Below are positions 2,664 to 62,057 of a stretch of 64,000 nucleotides of DNA, in pieces. The stretch spans positions 124,001-188,000 of the forward strand of contig JACPOI010000020.1 in NCBI GenBank assembly GCA_016185015.1. Reading direction: 5' to 3'. The translations under genes were made by a program, and so were the position numbers. Below the pieces are notes generated by a model. It worked only from the letters and a program-made list of their open reading frames with translations. It was not told where the DNA came from and searched no databases. The first letter of the stretch is position 1; each line of letters begins with the position of its first letter. The DNA comes from Burkholderiales bacterium (lineage in GTDB: Bacteria; Pseudomonadota; Gammaproteobacteria; Burkholderiales; Burkholderiaceae_C).

Positions 2664-2711
2664 GGCCGGGTCCAATCAATGCTTCAAAAAATCCCGACGG
2701 TCGCGCAGCGG

Positions 2712-2797
2712 ATGTTTCAGCGCCGGGCCGTCCCAAGCTGAAACGCGGCTCCCTCGGGGGGCAGGGAGCGACACGCAGTGCGCGACCGTGGGGGCCT
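2712..2797 (-). repeat. two-hairpin intergenic element, copy C
   Basis: GC-rich element beginning 2 nt after the stop of the Bug receptor gene and read on its strand. It shares GGCCCCCACG, ACTGCGTGT and CTGCCCCCCGAGGG with copy A at 37514-37597. A first stem can form around the CCCCCCGAGGGAG tract. The second hairpin has 8-bp arms GTTTCAGC and GCTGAAAC (plus positions 2714-2721 and 2737-2744) enclosing a 15-nt loop that differs from copy A at one base, whereas the arms differ at several positions and stay complementary. Confidence 0.75.
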
Positions 2798-2798
2798 T

Positions 2799-16845: not shown

Positions 16846-16940
16846 ACACCCCCAGGCTGCGCGCACTGCGTGTCGCTTCGCCACCCCCCTTGCCGGGGGC
16901 AAGGCCAGTGGCCCGGCCAAGCCGGTTCCACGGCGCTCCG
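16846..16940 (+). repeat. two-hairpin intergenic element, copy B
   Basis: The element begins directly after the ilvE stop and shares GCGCACTGCGTGTCGCT with copy C and CGGTTCC(A/G)CGG plus GGCCCGGC with copy D. First stem: CCTTGCC/GGCAAGG around 16888-16904. Second hairpin: GCC-A-GTGG-C-CCGGC, loop CAA, GCCGG-TT-CCAC-GGC at 16904-16934. Compared with copy D, GTGG/CCAC replaces GCGG/CCGC, which keeps base pairing. Confidence 0.75.
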
Positions 16941-37512: not shown

Positions 37513-37513
37513 C

Positions 37514-37597
37514 ATGGCCCCCACGCTTGTCACTGCGTGTACTGCGCTGCCCCCCGAGGGGGCTGGTTCGCCTTGGGGCGGCCCGGCGGCGAACCGG
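37514..37597 (+). repeat. two-hairpin intergenic element, copy A
   Basis: The element starts 1 nt after the mreD stop. First hairpin: GCCCCC-CGA-GGGGGC around 37549-37563. Second hairpin: arms GGTTCGCC (37565-37572) and GGCGAACC (37588-37595) with loop TTGGGGCGGCCCGGC. The loop matches copy C except for one base, while the arms differ and remain complementary. Confidence 0.75.
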
Positions 37598-42734: not shown

Positions 42735-42821
42735 CGGGGCCACCGCGGAACCGGCTTCGCCGGGCCGCTGGTGGCGTCCCCCTCCGGGGGAAGACGGCCT
42801 TCAGGCCGGCTCAGGGGGGCT
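42735..42821 (-). repeat. two-hairpin intergenic element, copy D
   Basis: The element begins 2 nt after the mmsA stop on the minus strand. First hairpin: TCCCCC-GGA-GGGGGA. Second, longer hairpin at plus 42739-42775: GCCACC-GCGG-AA-CCGGC, loop TTC, GCCGG-G-CCGC-T-GGTGGC. It shares the apical CCGGC/GCCGG stem and TT bulge with copy B, whose flanking pairs differ but remain complementary. Confidence 0.75.
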
Positions 42822-42823
42822 TC

Positions 42824-60950: not shown

Positions 60951-62057
<1,107 letters not shown>

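Follow-up and report, generated by a model that had tools for sequence, protein, structure and literature searches.

Two families of dispersed two-hairpin repeats in a Burkholderiales genome, one of them placed mostly in sense orientation just after stop codons

REP/BIME elements of enterobacteria are short dispersed palindromes found in 3′ UTRs, and roles in exonuclease block, in transcription attenuation and, within 15 nt of stop codons, in ribosome stalling have been described for them (PMC5082802, PMC12306157). According to PMC12306157, 446 of 4,072 REPs of E. coli lie no more than 15 nt from a stop; the figure for an older collection is 260 of 496. In REP systems with a RAYT, the rayt gene has a copy of the repeat on each side, the two being inverted relative to one another (PMC2817692). 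The ERIC element of Yersinia (127 bp) is intercistronic, co-transcribed, and sensitive to orientation; a change of fold induced by the ribosome, exposing an RNase E site, has been proposed for it (PMC2229807). The same paper mentions the Rickettsia palindromic element (RPE), which lies in-frame within conserved protein genes. The ‘Beta-proteobacterial repeat element’ (BRE; Hot 2011, PMC3110155) is about 75–91 bp long, GC-rich, and mostly intergenic, with some copies overlapping ORF ends, wholly inside coding sequence, or in tandem; its hosts are Comamonadaceae and Azoarcus, and its authors call for more investigation before any function is suggested. Statements on these papers, here and below, refer to the excerpts of them that were available.

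The window analysed here is a stretch of 64,000 nt from a Burkholderiales genome, the family of which, judged by the named hosts of the repeats, would be Comamonadaceae. A preliminary description of this DNA had reported four copies (A to D) of one two-hairpin element. All four were located, each immediately past the stop codon of the upstream gene. As described, this gene is read in the direction of the element, and the gene list places co-directional genes on both sides of every copy. The view that the four copies are a single element was not borne out. B and D belong to one family (F2) and A and C to another (F1), with separate models and different genome-wide behaviour. The features of the four copies are as follows (the gene names ilvE, mmsA, mreD and mrdA and those around copy C are those of the preliminary description).

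16846-16940, plus strand: copy B (F2), directly after the stop codon of an aminotransferase class IV gene (ilvE); the next gene encodes a zf-CHCC zinc-finger protein
16849-16853, plus strand: C-tract 1 of B, 3 nt past the stop codon
16855-16882, plus strand: hairpin 1 of B, variable in sequence
16886-16899, plus strand: C-tract 2 with G-tract of B (model R1 positions 4-17)
16901-16937, plus strand: hairpin 2 of B, with the F2 core, 15 pairs (model R1 positions 19-55)
42735-42823, minus strand: copy D (F2), between aldehyde dehydrogenase (mmsA) and GMC oxidoreductase genes
42814-42819, minus strand: C-tract 1 of D
42795-42808, minus strand: hairpin 1 of D, CGGCC-TGAA-GGCCG
42777-42790, minus strand: C-tract 2 with G-tract of D (F2 model)
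42739-42775, minus strand: hairpin 2 of D, with the F2 core (F2 model)
37513-37597, plus strand: copy A (F1, BRE-like), between mreD and mrdA
37565-37595, plus strand: hairpin 2 of A, GGTTCGC CTTGGGGCGGCCCGGCG GCGAACC
2713-2797, minus strand: copy C (F1, BRE-like), between Bug receptor and aldolase genes
2714-2744, minus strand: hairpin 2 of C

Both families are laid out as a C-tract, a short hairpin, a C-tract with a G-tract, and, as the family-defining feature, a final hairpin. The build said to be common to all four copies stands for this 5′ layout and for the GGCCCGGC core, but not for hairpin 2, the core of which is CTTGGGRCGGCCCGGCG in F1 and AGYGGCCCGGCRAAGCCGGTTCC or a close variant in F2. 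Short motifs are no commoner in the window than in shuffled sequence (CACTGCGTGTCG, 12 versus 13.8; CGGCCCGGCG, 46 versus 40.6; C5NAG5, 42 versus 55.3). The whole F2 composite, unlike its short motifs, is far above chance: the F2 covariance model, built from 28 sequences with B and D among them, finds B with an E-value of 2e-12 and D with 6e-14, and the next match in the window has an E-value of 1.4. Pattern searches of the genome of the window gave 23 F1-type and 32 F2-type places, some of the weaker ones being chance by eye, and the covariance models gave 21 copies of F1 (E < 1e-4) and 36 of F2 (E < 1e-5). The cores, the pattern searches, and the genome-wide placement rule out one family for all four copies. 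At the Rfam gathering score, neither F1 nor F2 was matched in the window; with a weak threshold, the best match at D had an E-value of 0.77 and there was none up to 1 at A. The only Rfam match in the window is to a group II intron at 61950-62026 on the minus strand (58.4 bits).

In the genome of the window, 27 of the 36 F2 copies lie between co-directional genes, 8 are at convergent junctions after the gene read in their own direction, 1 is antisense (L078), and none is found between divergent genes. The element thus follows a same-strand gene in 35 of 36 cases, and its C-tract starts no more than 15 nt from the stop codon in 33 of 36 (median 4 nt). At the convergent sites, the C-tract is 2–7 nt from the sense stop in seven copies and 38 nt in one; the end of the opposite gene lies 24–240 nt past hairpin 2. 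All 36 neighbouring upstream ORFs match a Pfam family (for L078, on the opposite strand) and are therefore taken to be real genes; they have no evident common function. Random insertion splitting no gene would satisfy the placement of F2 at 7.2% of the points and orientations in the window; orientation alone in this genome gives p = 1e-9. The preliminary description had proposed covariance models and genome-wide counts as a check of its rule that place and orientation after the stop are fixed. For F2 (B and D) these counts agree with the rule throughout the genome and do not show the pattern named there as refuting it, the convergent copies lying after the sense gene; for F1 (A and C) the rule fails.

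The same placement is found beyond this genome. In relatives, a same-strand gene lies upstream of F2 at 53 of 56 fetched loci, with 51 of these 53 no more than 15 nt from the stop, and among the GTDB matches listed, the gene upstream is on the same strand in 106 and on the opposite strand in 12, and was not found in 1 (119 in total); in neither set are the counts independent, as some loci are orthologous. The GTDB sample comes from an exact 23-mer scan that gave at least 117 stretches with 124 matches, 5 of which have less than 250 nt upstream and were set aside. Among the matches listed, 103 of the 106 same-strand cases start no more than 15 nt past the stop and 5 of the 12 opposite-strand cases are divergent junctions. 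Exceptions to the same-strand rule are therefore 1/36 in the genome of the window, 3/56 in relatives, and 12/118 among the GTDB matches listed. Eight plasmid records contain F2. Three have no usable annotation. In each of the other five (5/5), a same-strand CDS ends 4–36 nt before the start of the match, and the CDS listed next runs in the same direction; one such site separates the small from the large permease gene of a TRAP transporter.

As a short palindrome dispersed in 3′ UTRs, F2 resembles REP/BIME (PMC5082802 and PMC12306157, in the parts available), and with 36 copies in this genome and at least 91 in a relative it is a many-copy extragenic palindrome. It is unlike the REP of E. coli, as far as these excerpts describe it, in having 33 of 36 copies near a stop, a fixed orientation, and a longer layout. 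F2 shares its intercistronic position with ERIC but is anchored at the stop codon, unlike the 127 bp ERIC element of the available part of PMC2229807.

F2 occurs inside apparent operons (panB-panC, accC-prmA, methylmalonyl-CoA mutase-meaB, dctP-dctQ, glyA-nrdR, and binding protein-permease). Gene prediction relied on a codon model derived from the fetched loci, and the predicted starts are approximate; in 10 of the 27 co-directional copies, the predicted start of the next gene lies 17–49 nt past hairpin 2. This leaves little room for a promoter and a ribosome site, and the downstream gene is therefore probably transcribed through F2. The 3′-UTR role suggested for all four copies has good support, for F2, from position and predicted structure. 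We think it somewhat probable that F2 is a dispersed, transcribed 3′-UTR or intercistronic RNA element, with a mechanism that we infer as follows. The hairpins would stop 3′-to-5′ exonucleases and in part end or process the message, giving the upstream and downstream genes different levels of expression. F2 would then be a partly passable 3′-end element that shifts the balance of expression between the two genes, as the available part of PMC5082802 describes for REP. Such an element fits best because of the operon positions, the read-through geometry, and the lack of a U-tract. A plain exonuclease block would have no need of a fixed orientation, which suggests that the single strand beside the stop codon matters too.

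The strong hairpin 2 and the presence of 8 of the 36 copies at convergent junctions, with none at divergent ones, would suit a full transcription terminator. We regard this as highly improbable, as F2 also lies within operons with little space for a new promoter and lacks a U-tract. None of 35 copies in the genome of the window has five or more T within the 10 nt following hairpin 2, which rules out a canonical intrinsic terminator. Partial termination dependent on rho may take place at F2.

Read from the stop codon, F2 consists of 0–15 nt, C-tract 1, the short and variable hairpin 1, C-tract 2 with the G-tract, and the 15-pair hairpin 2, the core of which is almost fixed in sequence. In 28 copies from the genome of the window, 97.1% of the cells of the two-helix structure are paired and 61 are double-changed (20.7 in shuffles). 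The corresponding values for 100 model hits (80 GTDB loci listed) are 97.6% and 209 (55.9 in shuffles), in an alignment fitted to the model itself. The 14 orthologous panB-panC copies have 12 double-changed cells compared with 4.4 in shuffles; across these 14 genomes, the pairs with a double change number three, no more than in shuffles. G-U pairs are nearly absent from hairpin 2 (8 of 1,498 cells in the 100 GTDB hits among the loci listed). Hairpin 2 therefore fits a DNA palindrome as well as an RNA, and such scarcity would be unusual under a constraint on RNA only. Folding energies of single copies lie below those of shuffles for C (z −4.2) and D (z −2.3) and not clearly beyond them for A (z −1.21), B (z −0.38), and a panB-panC copy (z −0.65). 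In at least four copies in the genome of the window (L030, L039, L046, and L050), the 5′ part contains a longer structured insert. An insert with a (GTCC)AAGCCTGCGCAGGCAGGCTTGGAGCCGCGG-like hairpin is present at these four loci and at L162, L186, L271, and L295; at L186, in genome G013, it is located in an F1 copy, at an internal place similar to that in F2.

C-tract 1 and hairpin 1 would fall within the footprint of a ribosome terminating at the stop. Hairpin 1 begins no more than 15 nt from the stop in 30 of 32 parsed copies of the genome of the window (35 given; median 10 nt) and, among the GTDB matches listed, in 58 of 62 parsed copies (69 given; median 9 nt). Both C-tracts are possible partners of the G-tract in 124 of the 126 copies analysed (26/26 from the genome of the window, 36/37 from relatives, and 62/63 listed GTDB copies; 12 further copies were dropped by the regular expression and 8 skipped). 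In the minimum-energy folds of these 126, the G-tract pairs with C-tract 1 in 42, with C-tract 2 in 79, and with neither in 5. Together with the fixed orientation, these observations would agree with a ribosome-responsive switch or staller. A ribosome at the stop would cover C-tract 1 and hairpin 1, leaving the G-tract to pair with C-tract 2; once it has gone, the G-tract could pair with C-tract 1, and mRNA decay or ribosome release would be coupled to translation. The ribosome-dependent fold would resemble the one proposed for ERIC (PMC2229807), a likeness of description and not of sequence, and ERIC of Yersinia and REPs within 15 nt of stops offer precedents in the excerpts available (PMC2229807, PMC5082802, PMC12306157). 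We nevertheless consider the switch unlikely. Shuffled 5′ parts, which are still C-rich, also permit pairing with C-tract 1 in 77–82% of cases, and hairpin 1 differs little from shuffled sequence (10 of 32 copies in the genome of the window and 18 of 63 listed GTDB copies rank below the 5% level of shuffles made from the same copy). Because the tracts are nearly invariant, covariation between C-tract 1 and the G-tract is uninformative. A wider proposal is that F2 is a family-wide post-stop RNA switch, spreading among unrelated genes and arriving always in sense and directly after the stop; this seems to us quite improbable. Here the terminating ribosome would decide which C-tract pairs with the G-tract, and the message would be cut, ended, or protected as a result; sense-only arrival could perhaps stem from movement via transcribed or translated RNA.

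Orthologous junctions are filled in some genomes and empty in others. At the ilvE site, F2 is present in 6 of 22 readable genomes, 7 have gaps of 10–12 nt, and 9 have other spacers. Between panB and panC, it is present in 14 of 25 readable genomes; in 10 the junction is too short to accommodate it (−7 to 4 nt to the chosen panC anchor, or overlap by eye) and G009 has another spacer of 43 nt with a small hairpin. Among 24 genomes with a located mmsA end, 8 have F2 and 5 have F3, the sequence of G020 is cut, and the rest differ. Every F2 copy seen at these three sites is in sense orientation. As F2 is missing from many of the orthologous junctions (16 of 22 at ilvE and 11 of 25 at panB-panC), it is dispensable there. 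F3 is a third, long inverted repeat with the core GATGTGGCAAAGCGCAGCGCCTCTGAGCCC, located at the mmsA junction in species that lack F2 (L156, L160, L161, L163, and L164); at L160, the core differs by one base.

The patchy presence with short empty sites, the DNA-like palindrome with few G-U pairs, and the mobile behaviour of the sister family F1 would all be expected of a neutral mobile DNA repeat that inserts beside stop-like trinucleotides and persists wherever it disrupts no gene. This origin appears rather unlikely to us. Real stops account for 62 of the 251 tolerated window points directly after TAA, TAG, or TGA (24.7%), whereas 33 of 36 copies have a real stop close by; moreover, 0 of 36 lie between divergent genes, the junction is not fixed (0–15 nt), and no transposase is linked at the loci examined. 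Of 26 genomes of the genus, 25 have a PF01797 Y1 (RAYT-like) gene, 22 of them in a single copy. Neither F1 nor F2 flanks it at any of six loci of 5 kb (6/6; best F1 E-value 0.32, no F2 up to 1), and mobilisation by the Y1/RAYT gene is thus unsupported. The gene lies at about 2292-3018 of L240, with relatives in L241-L245; at four of the six loci, its downstream flank has short repeats of the AATTATT/GGGGTCAGA type by eye, which are neither F1 nor F2.

F2 was found in 32 of the 60 genomes searched, that of the window included. All are within the family of the window, and none of 24 genomes from other families has it. One relative has at least 91 copies (95 candidates scored). Hosts among the matches listed are Variovorax, Hydrogenophaga, Rhodoferax, Ramlibacter, Acidovorax, and Polaromonas and, further, Rubrivivax, Rhizobacter, Inhella, and Aquabacterium. 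The open-licence literature yielded papers on BRE and on REP elements in general, with no mention of F2 in the available parts of PMC3110155, PMC5082802, PMC12306157, PMC3733652, PMC2229807, and PMC2817692; the BRE section of PMC3110155, in particular, has no F2. Searches of the same literature for the literal sequence and for a Comamonadaceae intergenic repeat gave nothing pertinent. The earlier remark that no function had been described stands for F2 within this literature; F1 fits the described BRE, itself without an assigned function. Within this literature, we take F2 to be a newly recognised repeat of the REP/ERIC kind and F1 to be very probably known already. F2, now separated from BRE, accounts for intergenic sequence unmatched by Rfam in Variovorax, Hydrogenophaga, Rhodoferax, and others. 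As it respects the stop codon and the orientation in about nine-tenths of its copies across many genera, it amounts to a natural experiment on post-stop sequence. The ilvE and panB-panC junctions are occupied in some species and vacant in close relatives, so that any effect of F2 on the two neighbouring genes is open to direct measurement.

F1 is placed differently. Of its 21 copies in the genome of the window, 10 are in sense between co-directional genes, 1 is in sense at a convergent junction, 4 are antisense, and 6 are inside ORFs; among the 15 intergenic copies, sense outnumbers antisense by 11 to 4 (p = 0.12). The position after a stop is thus one of several that F1 tolerates. In the six intragenic copies (L004, L010, L011, L013, L014, and L119; sense in two and antisense in four), the frame stays open and 24–28 residues are encoded. 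The hosts are MurG, a fatty-acid hydroxylase, an acyl-CoA dehydrogenase, PEP carboxylase, a UvrA-type protein, and a hydroxyacylglutathione hydrolase. The F1-coded stretch is inside or at a break of the Pfam match in MurG, PEP carboxylase, acyl-CoA dehydrogenase, and hydroxyacylglutathione hydrolase and outside the matched domains in the other two. In-frame copies in conserved protein genes recall RPE, by description and not by sequence (PMC2229807, in part), although RPE belongs to another host group. At the mreD-mrdA junction, F1 is present in 4 of 24 readable genomes of the genus, one with a longer insert. G015 has a 9-nt gap there, with flanks 97–98% identical to those of the genome of the window; in G002, the F1 copy is identical to A, with a flank identity of about 80%. 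G007 has a 127-nt spacer, possibly a degenerate F1 copy. This presence and absence, the identical G002 copy, and the intragenic copies indicate that F1 behaves as a mobile repeat.

F1 was detected in 32 of 60 genomes, one of them outside the family of the window; copy A had no match in a phage collection. In size, copy number, host range, and the presence of tandem and intragenic copies, F1 agrees with BRE as far as the available part of PMC3110155 describes it: a GC-rich, mostly intergenic repeat of Comamonadaceae and Azoarcus. Judged by this description, F1 is very probably BRE. A tandem array of four F1 copies with a period of 84 nt is located at G031:C30:7874-8205. In the window, a long inverted repeat at 2675-2798 (minus strand), with a T-run (GGGATTTTTT) after its right arm, encloses copy C; the F1 repeat looks as if it has been built into a terminator-like structure here (fold z −4.2).
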